Origin: Thermoleophilaceae bacterium
GTDB lineage: Bacteria > Actinomycetota > Thermoleophilia > Solirubrobacterales > Thermoleophilaceae
Assembly: GCA_030447725.1 (NCBI GenBank)
Contig: JAUJOQ010000008.1
Location: 50,475 to 114,474, forward strand
DNA: 64,000 bases
Direction: 5' to 3'
The position numbers were made by a program, and so were the translations under genes. Every line of letters begins with the position of its first letter. The first letter of the stretch is position 1. Shown here one piece after another: positions 9,430 to 40,944 of the stretch. Under the pieces are notes generated by a model. It made no database searches. It was not told where the DNA came from and was given only the letters and a program-made list of their open reading frames with translations.

Positions 9430-9472
9430 GGCGGCAGGCGCCGCCAGCGCATTGCTGCCCAGAGTCCCCCCG

Positions 9473-9620: not shown

Positions 9621-9623
9621 CGC

Positions 9624-10922: not shown

Positions 10923-12884
10923 CTAGTGCTCGTGGGGGCCCTCCGCGCCGCAGGCGCAGGTGACGACCTCGCGCGAGATCGTTCGGTCGTCGGTGTGGAT
11001 GTGCGTCGTGCACGGCATGCACGGGTCGAAGCTGCGGATGGCGCGCAAGACGTCGATGCCCTTGAAGTCCTCGGGCTTCTCGTAGTTTTCCAGCAGCGGC
11101 GTGGCCGACACGGCCTCCTCGTATGGCCCCGGGTTGCCGAACGGGTCCTTCGGCGAGGCCATCCAGGTCGACGGCGTGAGGATCTGGTAGTTCTCGATCA
11201 CCTGGTTCTCCATCGTCATGTGATGGGTCAGGTAGCCGCGGCCGGCGCTCCAGAGCCCGACTCCCATGCGGAAGTCCTTCGGCACCTTGTAGGACGTGGA
11301 CATCTTCGCGTCCGGACCGCCCTTGCGCAGCAGGTCGTAGGCCAGCAGCAGGTTGTCGTAGGCGATCGCGGCGGTGTAGAGGATGCAGTAGGCCCGCCCG
11401 CGGTTGCGCTCGAACGCGCCCCACGTCTCCGGGATGTGCCACTCGATCTCCGGGTTGGGCAGATTCGCCTTCGGCAGGTTGATCTTGAGGCTGTGCCCCG
11501 TCGGCTCGAGGAAGTCGCTGCCCCGCCAATCCTTGGTGCCCGCCTGCGCGAGCGCCCAGATCCGCGAGTAGGCGCCGGTCTCCATCGCCTGGCGATCCCA
11601 GCGCGGCGCGGTCGACCAGGAGTACTTCTCCTTCCAGCTGGTGCCGCCGGGCTTGGGGATCGTCTCCTTGTTCCAAGGGTGGTAGGGCGACAGCGGGTTG
11701 CCTGCCGGGTCGGTGGGGAACTTGTAGTAGTCGCTGCCGTTGCCATTCGCGCTGCCGGGGCCGCTGCGATTTCCCTGGTCGTTTCCGACCCACTCCTCGT
11801 AGAAGGCGTGCTCCACGAACTCCTCGACGCCGGCATTCAGCATCTGCAGGCTGGTGGTCACCAGCTCGCCGTCGACGATCACGCCGGGCGGGGCCCAGCG
11901 CTGGCGGCCCCAGTCGTCGGAGTTCTGGAAGGTGCCGTCGTAGGCGTAGGGGTCGTCCCACTGGCCCGGCTCGAGCATGTTCGCCGGGCGGGTGCCGATG
12001 TCACGGTACTTCGGGTTGACCTCGTAGAAGAAGTCAATCACGTCGTTCCAGATCGCCACCGTCTTGCGGCCGTAGTCGAAGTACTTGACGACCCGCAGCA
12101 TGATCTCGTTGAGGTCGGAGACGTCGATCGTGCTCGACACGCCGCCCGGCACGACCGTCTCCGGGTGCGGGTACTTGCCCCCGATCAGTACGTAGGCCTC
12201 ACGCGCGACGCGCGTGTAGTGCAGCCCCTCGAGGTAGAGCTTCCCCGTGAGCGGCGTCATGTCGGTCATGATCTCGGAGATGAACTCGTACCCGTGGATG
12301 GCGCGACCCGGCGCCCGCGTGCTCGTAGCGCGCTCCCAGATCTCCGGGTTGGTCTCGCGCACCGCAGGCTCGGAGAAGTCGGGGCCCGCCAGCAGGCCGA
12401 GGTGGATCGGGTGGTCGTAGAGGTACTCGACAGAGAGCAGCAGGTTGCGCGCGACCACTCCCATCGGCGGCGGGTGGATGCCGAACGCCATCTCGCACGC
12501 CAGCGCCGAGCAGGTCGCGTGCACGCCGCCGCACACGCCGCACGCGCGGCTTGAGATAAAGATCGCGTCACGCGGGTCGCGTCCCTTGAGGATCACCTCA
12601 TAGCCGCGGAACAGCGTGGCCATCGAGGCCGTCTCCATCACCTGACGGCTGTCGAGGTCGACGACGGTGTGGAACGCCAGCGCGCCCGCCACCCGGGTGA
12701 CCGGGTCGAAGTCGACGCGCCGGACGCTGCCGTTTCGCTCGTGGAGGTCACGCATCCGCTCCGGGTCGTCCTCGATCGGCGTGGGGGCCGGAGTCTCGAC
12801 GTAGGAGTACGGGTTGGGAACGCTCTCCTTGAGCGTCGCGTTACCTTGCGCGTCGAATTCGATCGGCAGGTTCTTGAAGCACAT
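10923..12884 (-). CDS. hhyL: [NiFe]-hydrogenase large subunit 1, group 1h type
   Basis: Catalytic subunit of a [NiFe]-hydrogenase, 653 aa. The N-terminal nickel motif is RACGVCGGVHATCSA and the C-terminal motif is SFDPCMPCTTH. After that histidine come about 25 more residues (IHTDDRTISREVVTCACG onwards), so maturation by an endopeptidase is expected. A Gly/Asn-rich insertion lies near residues 375-400. The family resemblance is to actinobacterial high-affinity (Hhy) hydrogenases; exact group assignment needs a tree. It is 24 nt downstream of its small subunit with AGAGGAG upstream of the ATG. Confidence 0.92.
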   Translation of the reverse strand: MCFKNLPIEFDAQGNATLKESVPNPYSYVETPAPTPIEDDPERMRDLHERNGSVRRVDFDPVTRVAGALAFHTVVDLDSRQVMETASMATLFRGYEVILKGRDPRDAIFISSRACGVCGGVHATCSALACEMAFGIHPPPMGVVARNLLLSVEYLYDHPIHLGLLAGPDFSEPAVRETNPEIWERATSTRAPGRAIHGYEFISEIMTDMTPLTGKLYLEGLHYTRVAREAYVLIGGKYPHPETVVPGGVSSTIDVSDLNEIMLRVVKYFDYGRKTVAIWNDVIDFFYEVNPKYRDIGTRPANMLEPGQWDDPYAYDGTFQNSDDWGRQRWAPPGVIVDGELVTTSLQMLNAGVEEFVEHAFYEEWVGNDQGNRSGPGSANGNGSDYYKFPTDPAGNPLSPYHPWNKETIPKPGGTSWKEKYSWSTAPRWDRQAMETGAYSRIWALAQAGTKDWRGSDFLEPTGHSLKINLPKANLPNPEIEWHIPETWGAFERNRGRAYCILYTAAIAYDNLLLAYDLLRKGGPDAKMSTSYKVPKDFRMGVGLWSAGRGYLTHHMTMENQVIENYQILTPSTWMASPKDPFGNPGPYEEAVSATPLLENYEKPEDFKGIDVLRAIRSFDPCMPCTTHIHTDDRTISREVVTCACGAEGPHEH

Positions 12885-12908: not shown

Positions 12909-14240
12909 CTAGACCCGTTCGCCCCGAGCGTCGTTGCTCCGGTTGCGGTCGATGCCCTTCTTCTTCAGGATGTCACGGCTCTGGGGCAGCGGCTGCTTCT
13001 TGTTGCGCTTGCCCTGATCGACCGAGCCGTGGTATTGCAGCTTCTTGTAGAAGAATGTGTTGGTCTTGTCGACCACGCCCTTCCTGGGGGCCTTCTCCGC
13101 CCAGCCGGAGGGGACCTCGCCGGCGTTGTCCCAGAGCGGCTCGCGGTTGCCCTGCTTCATCGACAGCCGACGCAGCCGCCGGATCCCGCCGCCGTAGACC
13201 TTGGAGAGACCACCGGAGACGGAAGAGCCCGGCGGCGCCTTGTAGAACGGGCTGTACTTGTCCGGAAAGCCCGGCATCGTGCAGCCGATGCACGCCCCGC
13301 CGGCGACCATGCAGCCACCCATGTGGTTGATCGCGCCGCGCTCGGTGATGTTGCATTGCACCACCGGCCCCCAGCAGCCGATCTCCACAAGGCACTCGTT
13401 GTCGCCCGGCTCCTCGGCGAACACCCCCTCCTCGTAGTAGCCCGCCTTCGGGCAGTGACGGTGCACCGTCTCCTCGAACAGCCACGCCGGACGGCCGAGC
13501 TCGTCGAACTTCGGCAGCGGCCCAAGGTTCTGCAGGAACAGGAGCACGGCAGCCACCGTCTCCGTGAAGTTGTCGCCAACCGGCGAGCAGCCGGGGACGT
13601 TGACAACCGGCACGCCGAGCGCCGAGCGATAGTCCTTGCCGAGGAAGTCGGTGAGGCTCATCGAGCCGGTGATGTTCCCGGCCGCCGCGGGGATCCCGCC
13701 CCAGGTCGCGCACGTGCCGATCGCGACGTAGGCGGCGGCGCCGGGAGCGAGCTTCCACAGCCAGTCCGTGACGCGGTTGGGCTGGTCGGTCTCAGACTCC
13801 GGGTCGAAGCCGCCGGCGCCCATCGCCGAGAAGTAGCCGATATCGCTGGGAAACGCCTGATCGTCGGGCACCGAGCCCTCGAGCACCACGACGTAGGGCG
13901 CACCGAGCTCGCCGTTGACCGCAGCCTTCATCGGCCGGGTGAGCTCCGTGCCGGCGCCGGGGTTGAGCACGGGGTGATGCAGGATCACCTTGGGCAGGTT
14001 GGGAATCCGGCCGAGCAGCAGATCCTCGACCGAGGGGTTGGTCGCGCCCGTGGCGGCGATCGAGCAGCCGTCGCAGCTCATGCCGGCGATCCAGAAGACG
14101 TGGACCTCGTTCAGCGGACCGACGGGGCTGCCGCCGAGACCCCCGAGGCCGATCGGGTAGTCGGCACCGAACACCGCGCCCGCGTGGGGCACCTGTTGAA
14201 GCTTGAGCTTCTCCCCGTAGGGATGTGGATCATATGCCAT
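12909..14240 (-). CDS. hhyS: [NiFe]-hydrogenase small subunit 1, group 1h type
   Basis: Fe-S electron-transfer subunit, 443 aa. It has the proximal-cluster region GMSCDGCS, further cysteines in GTCATWGG and NVPGCSPVGD, and the medial/distal region HRHCPKAG, EIGCWGPVVQC and GGACIGCTMPGFPDKY. No twin-arginine signal peptide is present, so the enzyme should stay on the cytoplasmic side, as in Hhy hydrogenases. The start is the ATG at 14240, preceded by GGGGAGG; upstream in-frame ATGs lack such a site. It forms a unit with the large subunit that follows. Confidence 0.92.
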   Translation of the reverse strand: MAYDPHPYGEKLKLQQVPHAGAVFGADYPIGLGGLGGSPVGPLNEVHVFWIAGMSCDGCSIAATGATNPSVEDLLLGRIPNLPKVILHHPVLNPGAGTELTRPMKAAVNGELGAPYVVVLEGSVPDDQAFPSDIGYFSAMGAGGFDPESETDQPNRVTDWLWKLAPGAAAYVAIGTCATWGGIPAAAGNITGSMSLTDFLGKDYRSALGVPVVNVPGCSPVGDNFTETVAAVLLFLQNLGPLPKFDELGRPAWLFEETVHRHCPKAGYYEEGVFAEEPGDNECLVEIGCWGPVVQCNITERGAINHMGGCMVAGGACIGCTMPGFPDKYSPFYKAPPGSSVSGGLSKVYGGGIRRLRRLSMKQGNREPLWDNAGEVPSGWAEKAPRKGVVDKTNTFFYKKLQYHGSVDQGKRNKKQPLPQSRDILKKKGIDRNRSNDARGERV

Positions 14241-14279
14241 AGTCTCGCTGCCTCCCCTTCCTGCCTGGACCCAGCTACT

Positions 14280-14295
14280 GTGTGCATAGTACATA
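14280..14295. promoter_or_regulatory. shared promoter/operator element, copy 1
   Basis: GTGTGCATAGTACATA, 40 bp upstream of the first small-subunit ATG. It aligns with GTGTACCATACACATA at 18010-18025 upstream of the second pair (pattern GTGTRC-N5-ACATA, 11 of 16 identical). On the minus strand it supplies possible -10 hexamers (TACTAT). It could be a core promoter or a regulator site; the function is inferred only from recurrence and position. Confidence 0.4.
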
Positions 14296-14364
14296 TACGA
14301 GAAGCTCCTGCGCGCTCCGGCGAGCAATGGGCACATTGCCGCTCGCCGGCCGCCACGGCATTCG

Positions 14365-14946
14365 ATGAGTGACGGGGGCGGCGGCTTCGTCCCGGTCGAC
14401 ACCGGGCTCGTGCTCCAGACGCTGGTCGAGCGGATGTTCGGGATCATCGAGGGCCGCCGCGGCGACGAGCCTCCTGAGCCCGTCGCCGCCGTGTTGGCGG
14501 CTACCGACCTGCCCGTCGCAAGCGGCCACCCACGGCTCGAGGCCGACCTGCGCCACGCCGGCTACCTCGCGCGGGTCGTCGAGGTCGAGCTGTTCGAGCC
14601 CGCGCGGCGGCCGGCCGAATGGATCGGTGAGATGCTCACCGACTGCTTCGCCTCAGCCGCGAGCTGGGACGAGGCGGTGGCGGGCGCCTGTGCCGAGCTA
14701 GCCCGCTCCGAGCCGCTGGGCAAGCCGGACCCCGATGACGAGGCGGCGAAGAGCTGGCAGGTCCCCGGGCCCGGCGGGCACGTCCGCCACTACCTCGCCC
14801 GGCGCACGATCGAGGATTACCTCCGCGATGCCGAGGCCCCGGTCGAGGACCCCGCCGAGCTCAAGCGCCCGTGGCTGTACGGCTTCTTCGTGCGCGCGTG
14901 CGAGGAGACGCTGCCGAGGGAGGCGGCACTCGGCGGCGCGGAGTGA
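14365..14946 (+). CDS. hypothetical protein between the two hydrogenase pairs
   Basis: 193-aa acidic, mainly helical-looking soluble protein beginning MSDGGGGFVPVDTGLVLQ. No recognised motif; there are two cysteines (TDCFASA and VRACEE) and a conserved-looking segment PGGHVRHYLARRTIEDYL. It runs opposite to both hydrogenase units, divergent from small subunit 1 and ending 6 nt from the stop of large subunit 2. Codon use resembles the neighbours. No clear ribosome-binding site is seen. A role in hydrogenase assembly is suggested only by position. Confidence 0.6.
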   Translation: MSDGGGGFVPVDTGLVLQTLVERMFGIIEGRRGDEPPEPVAAVLAATDLPVASGHPRLEADLRHAGYLARVVEVELFEPARRPAEWIGEMLTDCFASAASWDEAVAGACAELARSEPLGKPDPDDEAAKSWQVPGPGGHVRHYLARRTIEDYLRDAEAPVEDPAELKRPWLYGFFVRACEETLPREAALGGAE

Positions 14947-14952: not shown

Positions 14953-16641
14953 TCAGTGCGTCGCGCAGGTCATGCAGGGATCGAAGCTGCGGATGGTGCG
15001 CAGCACATCGATGCAGCGTTCGCGATTCGCCGTGCTGAGCAGTGGTGTCCCGATGACGGCCGCCTCGCAGGGCCCCGGCTTGCCGGAGTCGTCGCGGGGG
15101 GACATGTTGAACGTCGAGGGGCCGACGATCTGGTAGCTCTGGATCACCTGACCGTCGAGCGTCACGTGGTGGCTGAGGTAGCCGCGGTTGCCCCCCCATA
15201 GCCCGGTCGCCTGACGACCGTCCTTCGGGACCTTGTAGTGCGTGGAGACGCCGGCGTCGGGACCGCCCCTGCGCAGAAGGTCCAGGGCGATCACCTGATT
15301 CTCGTATGCGACCAGAGCCGAGAAGGCGAGCGCGTACGCCTGGGCGCGGTTGCGCTCGAGCGCGCCCCAACGCTCCGGGATCCGCCACTCGATCTCGGTT
15401 GCGGGCAGCGCTCCCTGGGGTATCGCCAGCCGGAGGCTGTGGCCGGTCGGCTCGATGAAGCTGCGGTGCGGCACCTTGTCGGCGATCGCAGTCGCCCACA
15501 GGCGCGCGTAGGCCCCGGTCTCCATCGGCTCGCGGTCCCAGCGCGCAGCGGTCGACCACGAGTACTTTCGCGACGGGTCGGCCTCTCCGGGCTGAGGGAT
15601 CGTCTCCTTGTTAGAGGGATGGCGGGCCGAAAGCCGGTTGGGACCCGCGCCGTTTCCGGACCCCCCCGCCCGTCCGGAGCCCCAGTCCTCATAGAAGGAG
15701 TGGCCCACGAACTCCTCGACGCCCGTGTTGATCCTGCGAGCATCGCTGGTGCGCACCCTGCCGTCGACGATCGCGCCCGGCGTGGACCAGCGCCGCTCGG
15801 CCCAGGAGGAGGCGGCCTCGAACGTCCCGTCGTAGGCGAAGGGGTCATCCCACAGGCCGAGGTCGATGAAGTTCGCTCGCCCCCGGCCGACCTCGCGAAA
15901 GCGCGGGTCGGCCTCGAAGAAGAAGTCGACGATGTCGTCCCAGACCGCCACCACCTTCTGCGAGTAGTCGAAGAACTCGGCCACCCTGAAGAACATCAGC
16001 TGGAGATCCGACGCGTTGATATGGGCGCTGAGGCCACCCGGGACGATCGTCTGAGGGTGCGGGTACTTTCCACCGAGCAACACGTAGGCCTCGCGCGCGC
16101 GGCGGCTCATCCCGAGCGCCTCGGTGTAGAGCTTGCCGCTGAACCGGGTCATGGCGGTCATGATGTCGGCGATCAGCGCGAAGCCGTGCGTGGCCCGGCC
16201 CGGGGCCGGGGTCTGCAGCGCGCGCTCCCACAGCTCGGGGTTGGTCTCGCGCACCACCGGCTCGGAGTAGTCCGGGCCGACGCGGGTGAACAGGTGGGTC
16301 GGGCGGTCGTACAGGTCTTCGACCGCGACCATCAGGTTGCGCCCGACGATGCCCATCGGCGGCGGCTGTACCCCGAAAGCCATCTCCAGGGCCAGCGCCG
16401 ATGCCGTGGAGTGCACCCCACCGCAGACCCCGCAGGCACGGCTCGAGACGAAGATCGCGTCGCGCGGGTCGCGCCCCTCCAGGATCACCTCATAGCCGCG
16501 AAACAGCGTCGCGAGGGCGTGGGCGTCGAGCACCTGGCCGCCCTCGATATCGACCGCCGTCTGGAAGGACAGCGCCCCCGCCACTCGCGTGACCGGATTG
16601 AAGTCCACCCGCCGGGCGCCGGTCGTGGGCACAGCTGACAT
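14953..16641 (-). CDS. hhyL: [NiFe]-hydrogenase large subunit 2, no C-terminal extension
   Basis: Second catalytic subunit, 562 aa, clearly paralogous to the first. The N-terminal motif is RACGVCGGVHSTASA; the C-terminal motif is SFDPCMTCATH and the stop codon follows the histidine directly. It therefore lacks the peptide normally removed after nickel insertion and would not need the maturation protease. It starts immediately after the small-subunit stop (TAG then ATG). The missing N-terminal ~50 residues relative to copy 1 are also notable. Confidence 0.92.
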   Translation of the reverse strand: MSAVPTTGARRVDFNPVTRVAGALSFQTAVDIEGGQVLDAHALATLFRGYEVILEGRDPRDAIFVSSRACGVCGGVHSTASALALEMAFGVQPPPMGIVGRNLMVAVEDLYDRPTHLFTRVGPDYSEPVVRETNPELWERALQTPAPGRATHGFALIADIMTAMTRFSGKLYTEALGMSRRAREAYVLLGGKYPHPQTIVPGGLSAHINASDLQLMFFRVAEFFDYSQKVVAVWDDIVDFFFEADPRFREVGRGRANFIDLGLWDDPFAYDGTFEAASSWAERRWSTPGAIVDGRVRTSDARRINTGVEEFVGHSFYEDWGSGRAGGSGNGAGPNRLSARHPSNKETIPQPGEADPSRKYSWSTAARWDREPMETGAYARLWATAIADKVPHRSFIEPTGHSLRLAIPQGALPATEIEWRIPERWGALERNRAQAYALAFSALVAYENQVIALDLLRRGGPDAGVSTHYKVPKDGRQATGLWGGNRGYLSHHVTLDGQVIQSYQIVGPSTFNMSPRDDSGKPGPCEAAVIGTPLLSTANRERCIDVLRTIRSFDPCMTCATH

Positions 16642-17940
16642 CTAGATCTCCTCCCGCGACCTGATCCGCTCGCCCAGCACGTCGACGTGCCGGGTGTGAT
16701 CAACGCCCTTCTGGGTCAGGATGTCACGGCTTTGGGGCAGCGGCTGCTTCTTGTTGCGCGCGGCGTGGTTGACCGACCCGCGGTACTGCAGCTTCTTGTA
16801 GAAGTAGGCGTTCACCTTGTCGACCGGATCGCGCTTGCCCTTCGCACGCCCCCAGCCGGTCGGGACGTTCTCGGCGTTGTCCCACATCGGCTCGCGGTTG
16901 CCGCTCTTCATCGACATCCGGCGCAAGCGGCGAATCCCGCCACCGTAGACCTTGGAGATGCCGCCGGAGATCGCCGAGCCCGGAGGCGCCTTGTAGAAGG
17001 GGCTGTACTTGTCCGGAAAGCCCGGCATCGTGCAGCCGATGCACGCGCCGCCGGCGACCATGCAGCCACCCATGTGGTTGACCGCGCCGCGCTCGACGAT
17101 GTTGCACTGCACAACCGGTCCCCAGCAGCCGATCTCCACCAGGCACTCGGTGTCGCCCGGCTCCTCGGCGAACACCCCCTCCTCGTAGTAGCCCGCCTTC
17201 GGGCAGTGACGGTGCACCGTCTGCTCGAACTGCCACGCGGGACGGCCGAGCTCGTCGAAGTCGGGCAGCGGCGCGATGCCCTCGAGGTACTGGAGCAGCT
17301 CGGCGAGCGCCTCGGTGAAGTTGTCGCCGACCGGGGCACAGCCCGGGACGTTGACCACCGGCACGCCGCGAGCGGAGCGGTAGTCCACTCCAAGGTAGTC
17401 CATCAGGCCCATCGAGCCGGTGATGTTGCCGGCCGCCGCGGGGATTCCCCCCCAGGTCGCGCACGTGCCGATCGCGACCGACGCCGCGGCGCCGGGAGCC
17501 AGCGCCCAGATCCAGTCGCTGGTCCGAAGCGGCTGCTCTGACGCCCGCGCCGAAGGCAGCGAGCGCGGCCAGTCCGAACCGACGCCGAGACCCGCAAACT
17601 GGCCCGCGCGCTCGAGGCTCTGGTCGTCGGGGATGGAGCCCTCGACCACCATCACGTACGGCGCACCGAGCGTACCTTCGGCCGCCTGGCGGTAGGGCTC
17701 CACGAAGTCCTGGCCGGAGTCATCGGCGAGCATCGGGTGGTGGAGCACCACCTGCGGCAGGGCGGGGATCCTGCCCAGCACCATGTCCTCCACCGACGGG
17801 GTGATCGCACCCAGCGTGGACACCGAGCAGCCGTCGCAGCTCATCCCCGCGAGCCAGAAGACGTGTACGACGCCCGTGGACTGGCCCCCCCGGGCCCCAC
17901 CGATGCCGCTTCCAAGTCGAGGCGCTGCCTCTCGAGCCAT
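16642..17940 (-). CDS. hhyS: [NiFe]-hydrogenase small subunit 2, group 1h type
   Basis: 432-aa Fe-S subunit paired with large subunit 2. It has GMSCDGCSVSTLG, GTCATWGGIPAA, NVPGCAPVGDN, HRHCPKAG, EIGCWGPVVQC and GGACIGCTMPGF, all matching copy 1. No Tat signal. The ATG at 17940 is preceded by GGGGAGGAGG, and this decides against an upstream ATG at 17958 that lies inside that site. It is transcribed divergently from hypC. The long identical stretches shared with copy 1 indicate a duplication within this lineage or gene conversion. Confidence 0.92.
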   Translation of the reverse strand: MAREAAPRLGSGIGGARGGQSTGVVHVFWLAGMSCDGCSVSTLGAITPSVEDMVLGRIPALPQVVLHHPMLADDSGQDFVEPYRQAAEGTLGAPYVMVVEGSIPDDQSLERAGQFAGLGVGSDWPRSLPSARASEQPLRTSDWIWALAPGAAASVAIGTCATWGGIPAAAGNITGSMGLMDYLGVDYRSARGVPVVNVPGCAPVGDNFTEALAELLQYLEGIAPLPDFDELGRPAWQFEQTVHRHCPKAGYYEEGVFAEEPGDTECLVEIGCWGPVVQCNIVERGAVNHMGGCMVAGGACIGCTMPGFPDKYSPFYKAPPGSAISGGISKVYGGGIRRLRRMSMKSGNREPMWDNAENVPTGWGRAKGKRDPVDKVNAYFYKKLQYRGSVNHAARNKKQPLPQSRDILTQKGVDHTRHVDVLGERIRSREEI

Positions 17941-18009
17941 CCGCTTCCTCCTCCCCACGACGCCGCTAAGTGCGCCGCTACCCTACTGGTCAGACCGCCA
18001 GCCCGGTAG

Positions 18010-18131: not shown

Positions 18132-18410
18132 ATGTGCCTCGGCATTCCCGGCCAGATCGTCGAGCTGGTCGACTTTCATCATCACATCGCGAAGGCCGAG
18201 GTCTCCGGCGTACGGCGCAACGTGAACATCGGTCTGCTCACCGAGGGTCCCGACGCCGTGGGCGTGGGCGATTGGGTGCTGATCCACGTCGGCTTTGCGA
18301 TGTCGAAGATCGACGAGGAGGAGGCGCGGTCCACGCGCGAGTTCCTCATCTCTCTCGGAGAGCCCTTCGAGGCCGAGCTCGACGAGCTGGAGCAGAGCTC
18401 GATCGAATGA
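18132..18410 (+). CDS. hypC: hydrogenase maturation factor HypC
   Basis: Small chaperone (92 aa) that with HypD carries the Fe(CN)2CO unit to the large subunit. The N-terminus MCLGIPGQIVEL has the essential Cys2. The rest fits the family: VSGVRRNVNIGLL, then VGVGDWVLIHVGFAMSKI. GGGAGGATC lies upstream of the ATG. First gene of hypC-SIS-hypD-hypE; its stop overlaps the next start (ATGA). Confidence 0.96.
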   Translation: MCLGIPGQIVELVDFHHHIAKAEVSGVRRNVNIGLLTEGPDAVGVGDWVLIHVGFAMSKIDEEEARSTREFLISLGEPFEAELDELEQSSIE

Positions 18411-19798
18411 GCGCCCCGCCGGCCACGAGCGACCGCGCCATCGCCGGCCAGGACCGTCTCGCCTCGAGTGTCACCGACCGCGAGCGCGCGCTGGCGGTCT
18501 TCTTCGAGCACGAGCAGGCACAGCTCGCGCGCGCCTGCCATGAGCTGGCGCGGACCTTCGCGCGCGGCGGCACGCTCGTCGCCTTCGGCACCGGCGCCGC
18601 CGCCACCGACGCGGCCCACGTCGCGGTCGAGTTCATGCACCCCGTGATAGTGGGCAAGCGGGCGCTGCCGGCGCTCGCGCTCACCAATGACGCCACCGGC
18701 GCGGCACGCGGCAGCCGGCTGGCGGGCGCGGGCGACATCGCCATTGCGATCGCGCACGGACCGCCGGACCCGGCGGTCGAGCGCTTCCTCGACGGCGCGC
18801 GCGGGCGCGGAGCGGTCACGGTCGCCTTCGGGGCCGCCGGCTCGATGCCCACGGCCGACCACGGCTTCCCGGTGGCCAGCGAGGATCCCGAGATCGTGCA
18901 GGAGGTGCACGAGACCGCCTACCACGTTCTGTGGGAGCTCGTGCACGTGTTCTTCGAGCAGCCGGGGCTGCTCGACGAGGCGTGCATCACCTGCGGCGAC
19001 GTGGCCGTGGAGGCCACCGTGGCGGCCGTGCGCGGTGCGACGGCGATCGTCGAGCGCGACGGCGCGCGCGAGGAGGTTGCCGTCGAGCTCGTCGAGGATG
19101 TCCGCGAGGGGGACGTGCTGCTCTGCCACGCCGGCGTCGCGCTCGAGCGGCTGGCCGCGGGTGAGGGCGAGGCGCAGGGCGACGACCCGAGCGGCTTTCT
19201 CTACCCCTTCATGTCCTCCGCTGCGCCGGCGGACCTCGACGCGGTGCTCGCAGACGTGGGCGCGTCGAGCGTACGGAAGGCGCGCGACGCGATCGAGCTG
19301 CGGGGCAGCATCGACCTCGACGCCGTCCGTGCGTGCGCCGCGGCGGTGCGCGAGCGTCTTGACCGCGGCGGCCGGCTGATCGCGTTCGGCAACGGCGGCT
19401 CCTCGACCGACGCCCAGGATCTCGCCTCGGACGCGCTGGCGCGCGGCTGGCCGGCGCTGGCGCTGAACGACGACGTGGCGACGATAACCGCGGTGGGCAA
19501 CGACGTCGGCTTTCAGAACGTCTTCTCGCGCCAGCTGATCCCGCTCGCGCGGCCCGCCGACGTGGCGGTCGCGATCACCACCAGCGGCTCGTCGGCGAAC
19601 GCGCTTGCGGGTCTGGAGGAGGCTCACCGGCGGACGCTGCTCACGATCGGAATCGCCGGCTACGACGGCGGCCGGCTGGCCGAGCTCGACTGGCTTGACC
19701 ACCTGTTCGTGGTGGGCAGCGACTACATCCCGCGCCTGCAGGAGGCGCACGCGACCATCTATCACCTGATTCTCGAAGCGATTGGAGAGGCACCATGA
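18407..19798 (+). CDS. SIS - HypC-like - SIS fusion protein
   Basis: 463-aa protein with three parts. Residues about 20-185 are a sugar-isomerase (SIS, GmhA-like) domain (LVAFGTGAAATDAAHVAVEF). Residues about 190-245 resemble a HypC/HupF-type domain: ACITCGDVAVEATVAAV through VREGDVLLCHAGVALERL. Residues about 290-460 form a second SIS domain (LIAFGNGGSSTDAQDLASDA, ITTSGSSANALAGLEEA). SIS proteins are common in actinobacterial hydrogenase operons, but their role is unknown. Insertion of a HypC-like module hints at a direct part in Fe-ligand delivery. It overlaps hypC and hypD by 4 nt each. The ORF runs far upstream in frame, but the overlap and hypC decide the start. Confidence 0.85.
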   Translation: MSAPPATSDRAIAGQDRLASSVTDRERALAVFFEHEQAQLARACHELARTFARGGTLVAFGTGAAATDAAHVAVEFMHPVIVGKRALPALALTNDATGAARGSRLAGAGDIAIAIAHGPPDPAVERFLDGARGRGAVTVAFGAAGSMPTADHGFPVASEDPEIVQEVHETAYHVLWELVHVFFEQPGLLDEACITCGDVAVEATVAAVRGATAIVERDGAREEVAVELVEDVREGDVLLCHAGVALERLAAGEGEAQGDDPSGFLYPFMSSAAPADLDAVLADVGASSVRKARDAIELRGSIDLDAVRACAAAVRERLDRGGRLIAFGNGGSSTDAQDLASDALARGWPALALNDDVATITAVGNDVGFQNVFSRQLIPLARPADVAVAITTSGSSANALAGLEEAHRRTLLTIGIAGYDGGRLAELDWLDHLFVVGSDYIPRLQEAHATIYHLILEAIGEAP

Positions 19799-20934
19799 GC
19801 ATGCGATTCGTCGACGAGTACCGCTCCGGAGAGGTGGCCAAGCGCCTCGCCGCGGAGATCGAGGAGCTGGCCGAGCCCGGCCGCCACTACAAGGTGATGG
19901 AGGTATGCGGCGGGCACACGCACTCGATCTACCAGCACGGTGTGGAGGACCTCCTGCCGCCGGAGGTGGAGCTGGTGCACGGTCCCGGCTGCCCGGTGTG
20001 CGTGATCCCGATGGGGCGCCAGGACGACGCGATCGCGATCGCCGAGCGACCGGAGGTGATCTTCACCACCTTCGGGGACATGATGCGGGTGCCGGCGTCG
20101 AACGGGTCGCTGCTAGACGCCAAGTCGCGTGGCGCCGACGTGCGGATGGTGTACTCGCCGCTCGACGCGCTCAAGATCGCGCGGGACAACCCCGACCGCC
20201 AGGTGGTGTTCTTCGCTATCGGCTTCGAGACCACGACGCCCTCGACCGCAATCACGCTGCTGCGCGCTCGCGCGGAGGGGATCCGCAACTTCTCCCTGTT
20301 CGCCAACCACGTGACGATCATCCCGGCGATCCGCGCGATTCTCGACTCGCCCGACCTTCGTCTGGACGGCTTCATCGGCCCCGGCCACGTGGCCACCGTG
20401 ATCGGCACGCGCCCGTTCCGGTTCATCGCGCGAGACTGGCAGCGCCCGGTGGTGGTGTCGGGCTTCGAGCCGCTCGACGTGCTCCAGGGCGTGCACATGG
20501 TGCTCTCCCAGTTGCGCGATGGACGCTACGAGATCGAGAACCAGTACAGCCGCGTGGTCCGCGACGCCGGCAATCCGGCGGCGATGAAGGCGATCGGCGA
20601 GACGATGGAGCTGCGCACCACCTTCGAGTGGCGCGGGCTTGGCTTCATCTCCCAGAGCGCGCTGAAGCTGCGGCCGGAGTTCGCCGACTGGGATGCCGAG
20701 GTGCTCTACGAGGTGCCCGGCGTGCGGGTGGCCGACCCCAAGGCGTGCCAGTGCGGCGAGGTGCTCAAGGGCGTGATCAAGCCCTGGGAGTGCAAGGTCT
20801 TCGGCACCGCTTGTACGCCGGAGCATCCGATCGGCACCTGCATGGTCTCCAGCGAGGGGGCGTGCGCCGCGTACTACAACTACGGCCGCCACGCCGGCAG
20901 GCGGCGGCGCGAGGAGGCGCCTGTCCCCGCGTGA
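19795..20934 (+). CDS. hypD: hydrogenase maturation protein HypD
   Basis: Fe-S scaffold on which the iron receives CN and CO ligands, 379 aa. Conserved motifs: MEVCGGHTHSIY, HGPGCPVCV, GFETTTPSTA and GFIGPGHVATVIG. The C-terminal cluster-binding cysteines are CQCGEVLKG, WECKVFGTACTPEHP and GTCMVSSEGAC. The start ATG overlaps the SIS gene stop; the next gene, hypE, starts with a GTGA overlap. It appears complete and functional. Confidence 0.96.
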   Translation: MSMRFVDEYRSGEVAKRLAAEIEELAEPGRHYKVMEVCGGHTHSIYQHGVEDLLPPEVELVHGPGCPVCVIPMGRQDDAIAIAERPEVIFTTFGDMMRVPASNGSLLDAKSRGADVRMVYSPLDALKIARDNPDRQVVFFAIGFETTTPSTAITLLRARAEGIRNFSLFANHVTIIPAIRAILDSPDLRLDGFIGPGHVATVIGTRPFRFIARDWQRPVVVSGFEPLDVLQGVHMVLSQLRDGRYEIENQYSRVVRDAGNPAAMKAIGETMELRTTFEWRGLGFISQSALKLRPEFADWDAEVLYEVPGVRVADPKACQCGEVLKGVIKPWECKVFGTACTPEHPIGTCMVSSEGACAAYYNYGRHAGRRRREEAPVPA

Positions 20935-22037
20935 GCGACCGGCCGGCGCGCACCGAGGAGGAGGTGCTCGACGCGATCGAGCGCCGCCGCCGGCGCCCGG
21001 TGCGCAAGCTGCTCGACGACCGGATCACGCTGTCCCACGGGGCCGGGGGCAAGGCGAGCCGCACCCTCGTCGAGGCGCTCTTCCTTGCCGAGCTGCGCAA
21101 CCCGCTGCTCGAGGCGCTTGGCGACAGCGCGGTCTTCCAAGCGAGCTCAAACGGCGCCGCCGGACCCCGCCTCGCGTTCTCGACGGACTCCTCCGTCGTG
21201 AAGCCGCTGTTCTTCCCCGGCGGGAACATCGGGGAGCTGGCCGTGAACGGGACCGTCAACGACATCGCGATGTCCGGCGCCCGGCCGCTGGTGCTGTCGG
21301 CGGGGTTCATCCTCGAGGAGGGCTTCCCCGTTGCGGACCTCCAGCGGGTGGTCGCCTCGATGGCCGCCGCTGCCCGCGTGGCAGGCGTGGCGGTCGTGAC
21401 CGGGGACACCAAGGTCGTAGAGCGCGGCAAGGCAGATGGCATGTACATCAACACCGCCGGGATAGGGGTGATGGAGCGCGACCTCGACCTCTCCCCCGCC
21501 GCTGTGCGCGCCGGCGACCGCGTGCTCGTGTCGGGAACCATCGGCGACCACGGCACCGCCGTCATGATTGCGCGCGGCGACCTCGAGCTCGAGGTCGACC
21601 TCGAGAGCGATACCGCCCCGCTGGCCGAGATCACCGCCGTCCTACTCGACGCCGTCGGCGACGACGTGCGCTGCCTGCGCGACCCCACCCGTGGCGGGCT
21701 CGCGACCGTGCTCGCCGAGCTCGCCCTCGAGACGGAGCTCAGCATCATGATCGACGAGCCCTCGCTGCCGATCGCGCCCGCCGTGCACGGCGCCTGCGAG
21801 ATCCTCGGCCTCTATCCCCTGTACATCGCCAACGAGGGCAAGCTCGCCGCGATCGTCGCCCCCGAGGCCGCCGAAACGGCCCTTGCCGCGCTGCGTTCCC
21901 ATCCCCTCGGCCGGGACGCCGCGATCGTCGCCGAGGTCCGCGAAGAACCGCCCGGCCTCGTGCTGCTGCGCACCGGGATCGGCGGCAGCCGCGTGGTCGA
22001 CATGCTGGCCGGGGACCCGCTGCCGCGGATCTGCTGA
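20931..22037 (+). CDS. hypE: carbamoyl-dehydratase HypE
   Basis: Converts the thiocarbamate made by HypF on its C-terminal cysteine to thiocyanate, donating CN to HypC/D. 368 aa. The ATP-binding N-terminus has LSHGAGGKASRTLVE. Family motifs include STDSSVVKPLFFPGGNIG, VNGTVNDIAMSGA and RDPTRGGLATVLAE, and the end PRIC carries the essential terminal cysteine. GTG start overlapping hypD. The in-frame ORF extends back across hypD but that is not coding. Confidence 0.96.
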   Translation: MSDRPARTEEEVLDAIERRRRRPVRKLLDDRITLSHGAGGKASRTLVEALFLAELRNPLLEALGDSAVFQASSNGAAGPRLAFSTDSSVVKPLFFPGGNIGELAVNGTVNDIAMSGARPLVLSAGFILEEGFPVADLQRVVASMAAAARVAGVAVVTGDTKVVERGKADGMYINTAGIGVMERDLDLSPAAVRAGDRVLVSGTIGDHGTAVMIARGDLELEVDLESDTAPLAEITAVLLDAVGDDVRCLRDPTRGGLATVLAELALETELSIMIDEPSLPIAPAVHGACEILGLYPLYIANEGKLAAIVAPEAAETALAALRSHPLGRDAAIVAEVREEPPGLVLLRTGIGGSRVVDMLAGDPLPRIC

Positions 22038-24128: not shown

Positions 24129-24932
24129 TCAGGCCGGGGCGGCGCCGTTGCCGGCGCTGCCGCCGTTGCCCGCGATCGACCCGTCCACCAGACCGCGCGC
24201 GATCTGGTGGATAGCTGCGACCGCCGGGCCTTCGGGCGCGTAGTCGAGCGGTGAGGTGCCCGCGCGTTCAGCACCCGGCATCGCCTCATCGAAGGGGATG
24301 ATCCCGCCCACGACGAGCCCGTTGTTCTCCGCGAACTCGCGCACCGCCTCGAGGTCGCTCTCGCCACGCATCTTGTTGGCGATCAGCGCGACGTGCTCGA
24401 GGCCGAGATCCTTGCCGAGCTCCGCCATCCGGCGACCGGTCTCGAGCGACTTGAAGTAGGGCTCGACGACCAGCAGCATCGCGTCTGCGTACTGCGCGGT
24501 GCCGCGCGAAAGGTGCTCCGGGGAGGCCTCGGTGTCGAGGATGCAGAAGTCGTCGTGTGCCGGCGATGCCGCTTCGATAACGCTACGAACCGTAGCGTGC
24601 ATGCTGCACAGTCAGCCGGTGCCGGCGTGCTGGGGGTGGGCCATCACGAGCAGCGTCACGCCGTCCGGGCCCTCCAGCGAGTGCGACGTGCAGATCTCCT
24701 CGAGCGTCTTGGAAAGCTCGATGCCCTCCTCGGTGCGCCGCAGGAGGTTGCTCGGAAGCGTGGGCATGTCGTGCATCCGCTCCGGCGCGATGCCGAGCGT
24801 GACGACCAGGTTGGGGTTGGAGTCCCCGTCAATCGCTATCACGCGGCGGCCGTCACGAGCGAGGAGACGGGCGACCGTGCCCGAGAACGAGGTCTTGCCC
24901 GAACCGCCCTTGCCTGCCACCGCGAGCTTCAT
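24129..24932 (-). CDS. CooC-type nickel ATPase with in-frame UGA (candidate selenoprotein)
   Basis: SIMIBI-class ATPase of 267 codons, counting one in-frame TGA at 24612-24614. The part before the TGA has the deviant Walker A GKGGSGKTS with signature Lys8 and AIDGDSNPNL; the part after has ILDTEASPEHLSRG and ALIANKM. CooC proteins load nickel into metalloenzymes and bind metal at the dimer interface through a CxC motif (Cys112/Cys114 in the Carboxydothermus enzyme). Here the motif reads [UGA]-Leu-Cys at residues 107-109, in frame, so the UGA replaces exactly the first ligand. A perfect 8-bp hairpin follows at SECIS distance. Both halves are in the same frame without loss. No ribosome-binding site precedes the ATG; TAGTAT 8 nt upstream suggests a leaderless mRNA. 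The alternative is a nonsense mutation or sequencing error. Confidence 0.75.
24580..24598 (-). promoter_or_regulatory. SECIS-like hairpin downstream of the UGA
   Basis: On the mRNA, ACGCUACG-GUU-CGUAGCGU forms a perfect 8-bp stem with a GUU loop (or GGUUC if the top pair opens). The loop begins 21 nt after the UGA, within the distance range known for bacterial SECIS elements, and has the expected leading G with a GU. The codons used to build it (GCU, GUU, CGU, GUU) are unusual for this GC-rich genome, as if constrained by the structure. Confidence 0.7.
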
Positions 24933-24974
24933 CAACCGAGATACTACCGAAGAGCCCGGGGCGGCGCGCAACCC

Positions 24975-26237: not shown

Positions 26238-26247
26238 CGGTGGTCTC

Positions 26248-27135: not shown

Positions 27136-27147
27136 TCCGATCGTCTC

Positions 27148-30723: not shown

Positions 30724-31476
30724 TTGAGCTTCAAGTGGCTGTTCGGTCCGGTGCAGGAAGCCGACGCGTGGCTCACCGGCCTGTTCGAGGGCGCTCCGCT
30801 GCTGGTGGCCCTCGGCGTGGCCTTCGTGCCCGGATTGCGCCACGCGTCCGATCCGACCACCTCGGGGCGGTCACCTCGCTGGTGGCCGCCGACGGTGGGG
30901 ACACCAGCGCAGCCACGCGGCTGGGTGCGTGGCGGGGCCTCGGCCATGCAGGGGGCTGCTGGCGATCGGGATCGCTCTGATCGCCTTCAAGACCGAGCTG
31001 CCCGGGTGGCTGGAGAACGGCGCCGAGAAGGCGGTGGGGGTGGTGATCATCCTGCTGGCGCTGCGGGTGGCCGTGAAGTCGATGCGCGGCGACTGCCGGG
31101 CCGCCAGTCACGGGCACGACGGCGGCGAGCCGGCGACGCCTCGCGCCTGCGCCATCTGCGCAAGGGTGGCGACGAGCACTCCCACCGCCACCTCCGCACA
31201 CCACCAGGCGTTTACCAACGGGATTCTGCACGGCCTGGCCGGAACCGGCCCCGTGGCGCTGCTGCTGATTGCGGCCCTGCCCACCCAGGTCGAGGCGATC
31301 GCCGCGCTGGCGGTGTTCGCGCCCATGTCCGTCCTGTCGATGGCGCTGTGCACGACGGCCTTCGCCCGGGGTTCTCACGCGGCCGGTGATCGAGCCGCTC
31401 TACCGGACGGTGTTGATTCCGTGCCTTGGCGTCTTCGGGGCTGATGTTCGGTCTCTGGTACACCGGGATCACGTAG
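30724..31476 (+). pseudogene. NicO/RcnA-like nickel transporter, multiply frameshifted
   Basis: Pieces of one nickel/cobalt transporter appear in order but in changing frames: VALGVAFVPGLRHASDP, then DHLGAVTSLVAADGGDT, then LLAIGIALIAFKTELPGWLE and GVVIILLALRVAVKS, a His-rich loop in another frame (HLRKGGDEHSHRHLRTP), GILHGLAGTGPVALLLIAAL, then VLTRPVIEPLYRTVLIP and LMFGLWYTGIT before the TAG. At least five single-base-type shifts are needed. The His-rich loop and HDxH-like start are features of the NicO family. The remnant overlaps the 3' end of hypF by 8 nt. It is either a decaying gene or a stretch with local sequence errors. Confidence 0.8.
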
Positions 31477-33751
31477 GCAACCGGCTCCCGGCCAGCCGGG
31501 CGGCCGCTGCGGCGGCCTGGCCGTAGGAGATGCCGCCGTCGCCCGCCGGCAGCAGCGCGGGCAGCAGGACGCGCAGCCCGCGACCCTCAAGCAATGCGAA
31601 CGTGCGCTCGACCAGCAGCCGGTTGTTGAACACCCCGCCGGAGAGCACCACCAGGTCGGTGCCCCGCGCTGCGGCGATCCGGGTGCAGGCCTCCGCTGTG
31701 GCCACCGCCACGGCCGCGTGGAAGCGCGCCGCCACGAGCGCGGTCCCGGCACCCCGAGCCAGGTCGCGCGCCACCGCGCACACGGTCTCACGGGCGTCGA
31801 GCTCGAGACGCTCCCCGGCGTCACGCACCGGCAGCGAATATGGCTCGCCCTCGAAACCGGCGCCGGCGGCTGCCTCGAGCTCGATCGCAGCTTGACCCTC
31901 GTAGGTGACCGTCGAACGCAGACCGCATAACGCTGACACGGCGTCGAACAGCCGTCCCATGCTCGAGGTCGAGGGCGAGCCGAACCCGCTGCGAGCGAGC
32001 GCCGCCACCTGCTCCCACCGCTCCGGCGACACGGCCTCCGCGAGAGCAGACGGCGCCGACGGCCGGTCGTGACCCGCGGCGATCAGCCACGAACAGGCCA
32101 TCCGCCACGGCTCCAGCACCGCGCGCTCTCCGCCGGGCATCGGCACCGGCGACAAGGAGCCGGCCCGCTCATACGATGCGATGTCGCCGAAGAGCAGCTC
32201 TCCGCCCCACACGGTGCCGTCCTCGCCGTAGCCGGTGCCGTCGTAGATCGCGCCCACGGCCGGACCCTGCTCTCCGTGCTCGGCCAGACAGGCGGCAAGA
32301 TGGGCGTGGTGGTGCTGTACGGCCATCGTCTCCACGCCCTCGCGCGCGAGGGCGTAGCGGGTGGAGAGATAGTCGGGATGCAGGTCACAGACGACGACTT
32401 CCGGGGACACCGCGAACAGGCGCTCGAAGTGCGCGACCCCCTCCTCGAAGGAGCGCAGGGTCTCGTAGTTCTTGAGGTCGCCGATGTGGTGCGAGACCCA
32501 CGCACGCCGCCCGCGGGCCAGGCAAAAGGTGCTCTTGAGCTCGGCGCCGCAGGCGAGCACCGCCCGGGAGGCGTCGACCGGCAGCGAGATGCTCGCCGGG
32601 GCGTAGCCCCGTGAACGGCGGAGCATCAGCGGCGCCTCGCGCAGGTCGCCGAGCGATCGCACCACCGAGTCGTCGGCTCGCACGTGTATCGGCCGGTCGT
32701 GTACCAGCAGCAGGTCGGCGATCGAGCTCAGCCGCCTCAGCGCCTCGGCGTCGTCGTAGGCGATCGGCTCGTCGGAGAGGTTGCCACTGGTCATCACCAG
32801 CGTCTCCCCGACCTCCGCCAGCAACAGGTGGTGCAGCGGCGTGTAGGGCAGCATCACCCCGAGATCAGGGGAGCCGGGGGCGACGGAGTGGGCCACGGGC
32901 GCGTCGGGGCGCCGGCGGGCGACCACGATCGGGCGCTCCGAGCCCAGCAGCAGTGCCTCCTCGGATGCGGTCAGCTCCACCAGCTCACGCGCCGCCGGCA
33001 GGTTGGCGGCCATCAGCGCGAACGGCTTGTCTTCGCGATGCTTGCGTGACCGCAGAGCCGCGCAGGCCACCTCGTCCCCGGCGCGGCAGGCCAAGTGGTA
33101 GCCGCCCAGGCCCTTGACCGCCAAGACGGCGCCACCCCGCAGGGCCTCCGCAGCGGCCGCCAACGGATCATCCGCCCCCACGCTTTCCCCCCCAGGCTCG
33201 AGCAATGTCAGGGTCGGACCGCACTTCGGGCAGGCGTTGGGCTGGGCGTGGAAGCGCCGGTCGGACGGATCCCCGTACTCGGCGCGGCACAGCCCGCACA
33301 TCTCGAATTCGGCCATGGTGGTCAGCGGCCGGTCATAGGGCACGTCGCGCACGATCGTGAAGCGCGGGCCGCAGTCGGTGCAGTTGGTGAACGGGTAGCG
33401 GTACCGGCGGTCGCGAGGATCGGCCATCTCGAGGAGACATGCCGCGCAGGTGGCGACGTCCGGGGACACCAGCGCCAGCGGCGTGCCGCCCCGGCGGCTG
33501 GCGGCGATCTCGAAACCGGAGGCGCCGGTGGGCTCCACCTCCTCGGGGGAGACCCGCTCCACGGTCGCCAGCGGCGGCGCGTCGATCGCCAATCGAGTCA
33601 GGAAGGCATCGACCTTCGATCGGCCGCCCTCGGCCTCCAGCAGCACGCCCCGATCGTCGTTGAGCACGTAGCCGGTCAGGCCCAGCTCGCGCGCCAGGCG
33701 GTACACGAAGGGGCGAAAGCCCACCCCCTGCACCGTGCCGGTCACGCGCAC
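31469..33751 (-). CDS. hypF: carbamoyltransferase HypF
   Basis: Makes the carbamoyl group (from carbamoyl phosphate and ATP) that HypE turns into cyanide for the hydrogenase iron. 760 aa with all domains in order: acylphosphatase-like (GTVQGVGFRPFVYRLA), two zinc-finger motifs (CAAC...CTDC and CGLC...CPKC), a YrdC-like domain (VLAVKGLGGYHLACRA, LPYTPLHHLLL, MTSGNLSDEPI), and a Kae1-like domain (VQHHHAHLAACLAEHG, YDGTGYGEDGTVWGGE, VLSGGVFNNRLL). The GTG at 33751 follows AGGG and matches the usual start; a longer in-frame ORF exists. It appears intact although its neighbours are decayed. Confidence 0.95.
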   Translation of the reverse strand: MRVTGTVQGVGFRPFVYRLARELGLTGYVLNDDRGVLLEAEGGRSKVDAFLTRLAIDAPPLATVERVSPEEVEPTGASGFEIAASRRGGTPLALVSPDVATCAACLLEMADPRDRRYRYPFTNCTDCGPRFTIVRDVPYDRPLTTMAEFEMCGLCRAEYGDPSDRRFHAQPNACPKCGPTLTLLEPGGESVGADDPLAAAAEALRGGAVLAVKGLGGYHLACRAGDEVACAALRSRKHREDKPFALMAANLPAARELVELTASEEALLLGSERPIVVARRRPDAPVAHSVAPGSPDLGVMLPYTPLHHLLLAEVGETLVMTSGNLSDEPIAYDDAEALRRLSSIADLLLVHDRPIHVRADDSVVRSLGDLREAPLMLRRSRGYAPASISLPVDASRAVLACGAELKSTFCLARGRRAWVSHHIGDLKNYETLRSFEEGVAHFERLFAVSPEVVVCDLHPDYLSTRYALAREGVETMAVQHHHAHLAACLAEHGEQGPAVGAIYDGTGYGEDGTVWGGELLFGDIASYERAGSLSPVPMPGGERAVLEPWRMACSWLIAAGHDRPSAPSALAEAVSPERWEQVAALARSGFGSPSTSSMGRLFDAVSALCGLRSTVTYEGQAAIELEAAAGAGFEGEPYSLPVRDAGERLELDARETVCAVARDLARGAGTALVAARFHAAVAVATAEACTRIAAARGTDLVVLSGGVFNNRLLVERTFALLEGRGLRVLLPALLPAGDGGISYGQAAAAAARLAGSRLPT

Positions 33752-33777
33752 CCGAACCCTGCGCGGGTCGTCCAGCG

Positions 33778-34254
33778 CTACTCCCGGGGGCGGCTGCGGG
33801 TCTCGGTGAGCACCAGGCCGTACAGCACGTGGTCCATGGCCAGCACGGCGCGCTCCACCGGGCGTGCCGTCTTGGCCTGATCCAGTCCCATCAGGGGCGC
33901 CTGGACCAGCTCGAAGCTGAGCCACACGATCAGGCCGTAGACGGGTCCCGCCCAGCGCCGCAGGCGCAGATCCGCGGGCAGCAACGCGAACGCCGCTCCG
34001 CCCGCGGCGCCGTAGCCCCAGTGCATCAGCTCGATTGCGGCCCGGCGCTGGCCCTTGGGGACCATCCGGAACAGACCTTTCGAGGTCTGCCTCGCGATCG
34101 CCCGGGGCGGGGTCTCCCGGACGAGTCCGAGGCCCACGGTGAACGTGCGCATGCCGGTCATCGCCATCGCCGCGATCACCCCCCGCATCGCCTCGCGGGC
34201 CACCCGCTCCTCCGCATCGGGGTTGGCGCCTGCCGTGGTGGTGTCGTCGGTCAC
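33778..34254 (-). CDS. DUF1440/YagU-like membrane protein
   Basis: 158 aa with about three membrane helices (EAMRGVIAAMAMTGMRTFTVG, AAGGAAFALLPADL, VYGLIVWLSFELVQAPLMG). It resembles the YagU/DUF1440 group, members of which are seen near hydrogenase maturation genes in actinobacteria; that link is from memory and modest. The GTG start overlaps the stop of the broken hypB/SIS locus (GTGA), consistent with a former operon hypB-SIS-this gene-hypF. Confidence 0.65.
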   Translation of the reverse strand: MTDDTTTAGANPDAEERVAREAMRGVIAAMAMTGMRTFTVGLGLVRETPPRAIARQTSKGLFRMVPKGQRRAAIELMHWGYGAAGGAAFALLPADLRLRRWAGPVYGLIVWLSFELVQAPLMGLDQAKTARPVERAVLAMDHVLYGLVLTETRSRPRE

Positions 34255-34802
34255 GCCGACACCTGCATGAGCTCGCGCAGCACGTGCCAGGCCGAGGCCT
34301 GCGCCTCCTGGATCCGCGGTATGTGCTCCGAGCGCGTCACAAGGACTCGCGCACGTCGGACAGCACCGCCTCGAGGTAGACCTCCTCCTCGCCCATGAAG
34401 GGACAGAGAAAGCGCGAGCCGCCGGTGTCGTGCACCGTCTTTGCGGCGCGCCCCTCGAGCAGGCCGCGGTAGTCGAAGAACACATGCACCAGCTTCCACA
34501 GCAGATGGTAGGCGGTCTCGACGAGCTCCCGACGCAGGAAGGCGACCCTGGACGGTCCGGGCTCGAGCTGCCACTGCGCCCCGGCTGAGCGAGCCCTGGA
34601 CCCAGCCCTCGAGCACGCCGGGCCGCACGCCGTTCAGCCCCGGGCGCAACACGCTCTCGAGCAGCGTGGTCTTCCCGGCGCCGGGTGCGCTCATCAGGTT
34701 CACACGCGCCCCTGAGCGGTCGAAGTAGTCGCGGTTGGCGCGCGCGATCGTGTTGTTCGCGTCGAGGGCGTCCTCGACCACCCTCACCCTGGTCCGATGC
34801 AT
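34251..34802 (-). pseudogene. hypB truncated and merged with remnants of a SIS-domain gene
   Basis: The first ~78 codons match HypB, the GTPase for nickel insertion: ALDANNTIARANRDYFD, then the P-loop NLMSAPGAGKTTLLE and GVRPGVLEGWVQGS, where HypB usually has EGDVQ. The GTPase core beyond this is absent. Instead, in a shifted frame, come pieces of a SIS protein (LVETAYHLLWKLVHVFFDY, GSRFLCPFMGEEE), and in the original frame its extreme C-terminus (SEHIPRIQEAQASAWHVLRE). Two internal deletions and a frame change are implied. GAGGGGAGG precedes the ATG, so it may still be transcribed. No intact hypA or hypB is in the window. Confidence 0.85.
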
Positions 34803-39416: not shown

Positions 39417-39426
39417 CTGCTGTCTC

Positions 39427-40944
<1,518 letters not shown>

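Follow-up and report, generated by a model that had tools for sequence, protein, structure and literature searches.

A candidate selenocysteine-containing CooC-like ATPase beside [NiFe]-hydrogenase genes in a Thermoleophilaceae bacterium and in other bacteria

The stretch of DNA analysed here, called the window throughout, comprises 64,000 nucleotides of contig JAUJOQ010000008.1 (positions 50,475 to 114,474 of the forward strand) in the assembly GCA_030447725.1 of a Thermoleophilaceae bacterium, and it carries on its minus strand a gene for a CooC-like P-loop ATPase in which one UGA codon is predicted to encode selenocysteine (Sec, U). The gene runs from an ATG at 24932 to a terminal TGA at 24131-24129, and its sole internal stop is the TGA of codon 107 (24614-24612), which is followed by CTG TGC (Leu-Cys109) to give the motif U-L-C within the sequence PQHAGTG-U-L-C-SMHATVR. 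Both the complete frame broken by a single TGA and the UGA-Leu-Cys motif at 107-109 had been described in a first-pass annotation made from the sequence alone, and both were recovered here, with the minus strand as the coding strand. The read-through product would have 267 aa. In a mechanical list of open reading frames (ORFs) the gene appears in two parts (24612-24971 and 24129-24602), which would suit the view that the UGA is an ordinary stop and that the gene is broken or split, its second half being a separate ORF that starts at an ATG in codon 111.

The comparison with homologues, in which one best place per locus was taken and identical regions were merged prior to counting, encompassed 51 distinct stretches. 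Codon 107 is TGA in 24 of these and Cys (TGC/TGT) in the remaining 27, and since nothing else occurs there, the pattern exceeds chance. The flanks match between the two sets, as in TGxLCSMHATVR, where x is UGA or Cys; the first-pass annotation had proposed such an alignment as a check, and had named nonsense codons at random positions in homologues as evidence to the contrary, which was not seen, the UGA positions being non-random. A local sequencing error as the source of the TGA was rejected as very unlikely, because separately assembled genomes carry the same TGA. None of the 24 UGA stretches contains another in-frame stop among the codons read before the UGA (106 codons, except for L074, where only 35 are readable), and the next 129 codons are stop-free in 23 of them. 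The exception is L091, whose frame is lost near residue 138; L090 and L091 belong to one bin, in which the UGA gene occurs in nearly identical form on two contigs, both copies being frame-broken near that residue. In a branch formed by L047, L048 and L053 the UGA and the hairpin described below are kept, while Gly replaces the second Cys (U-L-G), so the metal site there must differ.

A start at codon 111 is available in 13 of the 24 UGA stretches, which have ATG at this codon, whereas the other 11 have a non-Met residue (8 Leu, 2 Ser and 1 Ala). A split gene would moreover require the break to hit one and the same codon in every UGA stretch, while the Cys homologues cross codon 107 in a single frame. 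The ratio of nonsynonymous to synonymous substitution rates (dN/dS) downstream of the UGA, with the hairpin excluded, is 0.04-0.41 in ten pairs of UGA genes (nine at 0.22 or lower), and upstream it is 0.06-0.21 in eight usable comparisons; the pairs are not independent and were compared ungapped, and the upstream value of L070/L078, being out of register, was ignored. The codons past the UGA are under purifying selection, and selection of this kind on both halves, together with a conserved hairpin stem, makes the split-gene explanation very improbable.

The distribution of the UGA form is broad. In the order to which the window genome belongs, a match at E <= 1e-70 was obtained for 22 of 232 genomes, and at the inspected sites (31 of 37 rows, the other 6 having no locus) codon 107 is UGA in 11 of these genomes and exclusively Cys in the other 11. 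The scan of named genomes returned 43 loci, of which 42 cover codon 107 (20 TGA and 22 TGC/TGT). UGA is carried by, among others, bins with the names Thermoleophilaceae, Solirubrobacteraceae and Gaiellaceae, a 'Rhizobiaceae' bin and two SAR324 bacteria, which NCBI places among deltaproteobacterial lineages; a further SAR324-class genome has U-M-C at the site. The position of the UGA is shared by relatives belonging to at least two bacterial phyla. In a 49-row tree built with residue 107 masked and without L074, L091 and L096, Sec and Cys switched at least two times if one counts over branches with good support, and the best tree has five switches; in this tree the SAR324 branch and that of L098 may be falsely joined.

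Downstream of codon 107 the window gene may form a hairpin whose stem, ACGCUAC/GUAGCGU, begins sixteen bases past the U of the UGA and encloses a loop of five bases. The full set of 7 stem pairs is present in 21 of the 24 UGA stretches and in none of the 27 Cys stretches; the exceptions among the former are L075, with 6 pairs, and two SAR324 rows, with 4 pairs in this register. In the UGA genes 95.7% of stem cells are paired, as against 5-52% in the slid-partner control and 45.9% in the Cys genes of alignment A2, which holds 14 of the 27 distinct Cys stretches. The folding energy is -10.2 kcal/mol for the 24 UGA stretches versus -4.9 kcal/mol for the 27 Cys stretches, a difference for which p = 2.4e-8 is only indicative, since the rows are related. 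Covariation in the stem is thin (C-G to U-A in L096, A-U to G-C in the SAR324 rows), and other covariation measures did not separate the UGA set from the Cys set. The G-U of the loop was dropped as a mark of Sec because it occurs in 23 of 24 UGA stretches and also in 23 of 27 Cys stretches; being common to both sets, it leaves the stem as the distinguishing feature. In the window gene the predicted stem-loop stands immediately 3' of the UGA and its small apical loop includes a G, which is how the bacterial selenocysteine insertion sequence (SECIS) is characterized in the accessible part of PMC1088965, and a stem kept in the UGA stretches and lost in the Cys stretches is as expected of such an element.

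One Cys gene, L046 (L046:1621-1671), retains 6 of 7 pairs and the loop GGUUC, and its genome (G112) yielded no SelA at E <= 1e-20 and no SelB at E <= 1e-40. Judging from these sequence features, L046 is likely to be a former Sec gene that turned to Cys and keeps a decaying hairpin, i.e. a SECIS fossil. The model R1 includes the coding flank, so Cys homologues also score with it (33.8 bits for L046 and 32.0 bits for L064), as against 40.5 bits or more for the UGA loci. Over the searched stretches of the window's own genome R1 gave no additional UGA site. Its match at L026 10804-10854 (minus strand, 27.6 bits) corresponds to a Cys paralogue at C4:44384 and was rejected as a Sec site; this paralogue had itself been considered as a second Sec gene on account of one TGA, which proved to be the gene end, position 107 being Cys. 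The single R1 match in L027 (E 0.61) is no better than chance, and no Rfam family matched the window at its gathering score.

The genome to which the window belongs encodes the machinery that Sec insertion requires. A tRNA-Sec gene (selC) with the anticodon UCA lies at C9:28840-28931, and adjoining it on this contig are three genes that exceed their respective cut-offs, selA with 487, selB with 348 and selD with 385 bits; the search for the four genes that the first-pass annotation had called for therefore found all of them, in one cluster. Among the 20 distinct UGA genomes, in which G211 and G241 were counted as one because selA has identical coordinates in both, SelA or SelB is over cut-off in 16, and neither is in G206, G210, G234 and G238. 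In the 11 Cys-only genomes of the order, SelA was found in 4 and SelB over cut-off in one more (G174).

UGA has been recoded to Trp in other bacteria, and a Cys could in principle fill a site where Cys and Sec alternate. Translation of codon 107 as Trp or Cys is nevertheless contradicted by the terminal TGA of the ATPase gene, which indicates that UGA serves as a stop here too, by the counterpart residue, which is Cys in all 27 non-TGA stretches and never Trp, and by the presence of the Sec genes and of the hairpin. This possibility appears even more remote than that of a split gene, and we consider the insertion of Sec at codon 107 to be nearly certain.

No selenoprotein of this type was found in the open-licence main texts searched (supplements being outside this scope). 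In its accessible part, a table from 2026 that lists 119 families and subfamilies of prokaryotic selenoproteins (PMC13188914) includes no CooC/MinD-type ATPase and no hydrogenase maturation protein, in agreement with the earlier remark that no described selenoprotein of the CooC family was known, and the accessible portions of PMC12013277, PMC9312934, PMC2398784, PMC5029168 and PMC1088965 contain no mention of CooC. The gene resembles the known prokaryotic selenoproteins, as far as they are set out in the available part of PMC13188914, in its UGA/Cys pairs, its hairpin directly after the UGA and the accompanying selABCD, while UxC motifs are recorded there in other folds (Trx-like Sec.2 and the SO_0444 Cu/Zn transporter). 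If the assignment is true, Sec would occur in a CooC-related P-loop metallochaperone, a class absent from that part of the 2026 table. Such proteins are likely to be misread, because ordinary gene calling ends at the UGA.

The read-through protein is a CbiA/MinD-type ATPase (Pfam PF01656) with the deviant Walker A motif of the MinD class, GKGGxGKT, present as GKGGSGKT at residues 7-14. Its best PDB match is CooC1 (3kje), both by sequence (residues 1-225, E 4.5e-27) and by profile (E 7.3e-45). CooC1 was also the top Foldseek hit of an AlphaFold2 monomer model with a mean predicted local distance difference test score (pLDDT) of 89, in which the surroundings of residue 107 are modelled less well (pLDDT 62 in block 101-110); VIA-align 2 ranked CooC1 only 48th among near-tied folds and does not single it out. 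By sequence, U107 aligns with CooC1 Cys112 and C109 with Cys114, in agreement with the expectation that the UGA falls on a metal-ligand position of CooC1; the new Sec-x-Cys metal-binding site that the first-pass annotation put forward would follow from this alignment. In CooC1 a single Zn or Ni is bound between its two subunits by these two cysteines, according to the accessible part of PMC6006190.

The designation of the protein as CooC-type, made in the first-pass annotation, holds in so far as CooC1 is the closest relative by sequence, but not in the strict sense of an ATPase that matures carbon monoxide dehydrogenase (CODH): Ni-CODH (CooS, TIGR01702) had no match in any of 19 genomes, including that of the window, and since this genome is without a CooS match, the window ATPase is not a CODH-maturing CooC. 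It shares with CooC1 of Carboxydothermus hydrogenoformans (PDB 3kje/3kji) the GKGGxGKT motif and a pair of residues, U107/C109, that aligns with the CxC at the metal-binding dimer interface; it differs in having UGA for the first Cys, in a genome that gave no Ni-CODH match and in its [NiFe]-hydrogenase neighbours. An NCBIfam scan of the ATPase at E <= 0.001 gave no row for HypB (TIGR00073). For the 120 top-ranking proteins out of 2266 related ones, the source names, where given, are CO dehydrogenase maturation factor, AAA family ATPase, ArsA-related P-loop ATPase or hypothetical protein.

The features of the window that bear on the ATPase are collected in Table 1. The two hydrogenase large subunits match HofG (PDB 5aa5) with 412 and 471 bits, the next best structures reaching 168 and 175 bits. 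In the SIS-domain protein, the HypC-like segment occupies residues 200-255, before the GmhA-like half.

Table 1. The candidate selenoprotein gene, its elements and the hydrogenase-related genes of the window
Feature	Position	Strand	Remark
Predicted Sec-containing CooC-like P-loop ATPase gene	24129..24932	-	267 codons, one UGA read through
In-frame UGA, codon 107	24612..24614	-	predicted selenocysteine
TGC, Cys109	24606..24608	-	second residue of UxC motif
Predicted bacterial SECIS hairpin ACGCUAC-GGUUC-GUAGCGU	24580..24598	-	stem lost in Cys homologues
HycI-type hydrogenase maturation protease	8923..9660	-	inside longer mechanical ORF
[NiFe]-hydrogenase large subunit 1	10923..12884	-	closest solved structure HofG 5aa5
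[NiFe]-hydrogenase small subunit 1	12909..14447	-	mechanical ORF, start probably further in
[NiFe]-hydrogenase large subunit 2	14953..16641	-	closest solved structure HofG 5aa5
[NiFe]-hydrogenase small subunit 2	16642..17958	-	
hypC	18132..18410	+	TIGR00074, 82 bits
SIS-domain protein with internal HypC-like segment	18407..19798	+	
hypD	19795..20934	+	505 bits
hypE	20922..22037	+	frame shown, start within; 432 bits
hypF	31469..33925	-	781 bits
ORF with only first ~70 residues of HypB	34251..34802	-	continues as something else

An association with hydrogenases extends to the relatives, since hydrogenase, hyp or protease genes occur in the available stretch at 31 of 42 named loci, 13 among the 20 with TGA and 18 among the 22 with Cys. 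Along the contig, the Acidimicrobiales locus L092 and others like it have, in this order, the genes for a hydrogenase large and small subunit, a small Pfam-less protein, a PadR regulator and the Cys-form ATPase, and next hypC, SIS, hypD, hypE and hypF. The order in the SAR324 locus L088 is hypF, hypC, two SIS genes, hypD, hypE, the UGA gene, a small protein and a family 5 solute-binding ATP-binding cassette (ABC) system; its two separate SIS genes stand where the window has the SIS protein with the HypC-like segment.

The window's own genome yielded neither a HypA match nor a HypB that exceeds the cut-off; of HypB it has only the first ~70 residues. The same double result was obtained for 12 of the 16 UGA genomes tested, among them G208 (96% complete), G211 (95%) and the two SAR324 genomes; five of the 12 are 64-88% complete, and G234 has an 86-bit match to the HypB family below the cut-off. 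HypB is present in the UGA genomes G186, G187 and G236, and G210 has sub-cut-off matches to HypA and HypB. Both proteins are lacking in 2 of 6 Cys genomes.

Taken together, these observations favour, with a probability of roughly 0.8, the reading that the UGA is decoded as Sec at a predicted CxC metal site and that the ATPase delivers Ni to the neighbouring [NiFe]-hydrogenases. As a part of this, the ATPase probably functions in nickel insertion for high-affinity hydrogenases and in some genomes replaces HypA/HypB, which would offer a candidate answer to the question of Ni supply where these two proteins were not found. In such a mechanism SelB would bind the hairpin and insert Sec-107, and two subunits could then join via Sec107 and Cys109 around one Ni(II) in an Se2S2 site, where CooC1 uses four thiolates. 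The ATP cycle would open and close this site, and Ni would pass from the ATPase to the large hydrogenase subunit after its loading by HypCDEF, in place of HypA/HypB. More speculatively, in an aerobic cell the selenolate may preserve a reduced site that stays open to exchange. The supply of selenium would in that case be tied to hydrogen oxidation, possibly of atmospheric hydrogen.

Comparable systems for the nickel step have been described. The available part of PMC9561532 already notes a CooC-type Ni insertion ATPase in clusters of group 1m [NiFe]-hydrogenases, and these resemble the window in being actinobacterial high-affinity hydrogenase clusters with a HybD-type protease, an iron-sulfur (FeS) assembly protein and a hydrogenase modelled on 5AA5; the likeness between the two ATPases is one of description, and groups 1h and 1m are not distinguishable here. 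In the main text of that paper 'selen' occurs 0 times and HypA and HypB are unnamed. The HypB GTPase and the ATPase-type HypB of Thermococcus kodakarensis, described as an Mrp/MinD-type ATPase in the accessible parts of PMC7055735 and PMC9164220, likewise act in the nickel step of [NiFe]-hydrogenase maturation, but the window ATPase differs from HypB in having no match to that family and in its CooC-like UxC.

It is also conceivable that Sec is real and that the ATPase is a redox protein or handles zinc or selenium without inserting nickel into hydrogenase. In the accessible part of PMC6006190, CooC1 takes Zn and Ni at one site and the Rhodospirillum CooC shows no tight Ni binding, while many Sec motifs are thought, in the available part of PMC13188914, to be redox motifs; three UGA genomes do have HypB, and variants with UxG and UxUC hint at a chemistry beyond that of a single Ni site. 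The hydrogenase and hyp neighbours, the ABC system of the SAR324 locus L088, the many carriers in which HypA/HypB were not found and the CooC-type Ni insertion ATPase already noted in group 1m clusters nevertheless render this alternative rather unlikely, and delivery of nickel to the hydrogenases is preferred.

A second CooC-like ATPase, with CxCC in place of CxC, is often encoded beside the UGA/Cys gene and occurs in its Cys form in the window's own genome. In seven distinct stretches this paralogue contains UGA, the motif being CxUC in L091, L127, L131 and L143 and UxUC in L075 (L075:1032-1736), L130 and L134, and in each of the seven a hairpin, CCYGAGC-AGUU-GCUCGG(G), lies at one distance after the UGA. 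The folding energy averages -11.5 kcal/mol in the 7 UGA stretches and -2.7 kcal/mol in 25 Cys stretches, with weaker discrimination than in the first family, as 3 of the 25 (L069, L072 and L132) are at -10 or lower. SelA and SelB are over cut-off in the genome of L091, and SelA is in those of L127 (G226) and of L131 and L143 (G209); the genome of L134 (G074) has a partial SelA match below cut-off (213 of 267.9 bits), and none was seen in the genomes of L130 (G206) and L075 (G238). Under the assumption of a Ni relay, the UxUC paralogue would place up to four selenolates in a dimer. The most far-reaching proposal, a genetically encoded selenolate Ni site (Se2S2) in an ATPase that replaces HypA/HypB for aerobic high-affinity hydrogenases and forms a selenium-based nickel relay with its UxUC sister, is put forward as a tentative idea, with the odds slightly against it.

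Two further regions of the window, both on the minus strand, may be mentioned. The translations at 36815-40932 resemble phosphoribulokinase, a CbbX-type AAA protein and the two RuBisCO subunits, small and large; this gene set shares the stretch with the hydrogenases and is reminiscent of atmospheric chemosynthesis. At 25386-28245 the ORFs encode long Ser/Ile/Asn-rich near-repeats of the type SINSTAGGINS.
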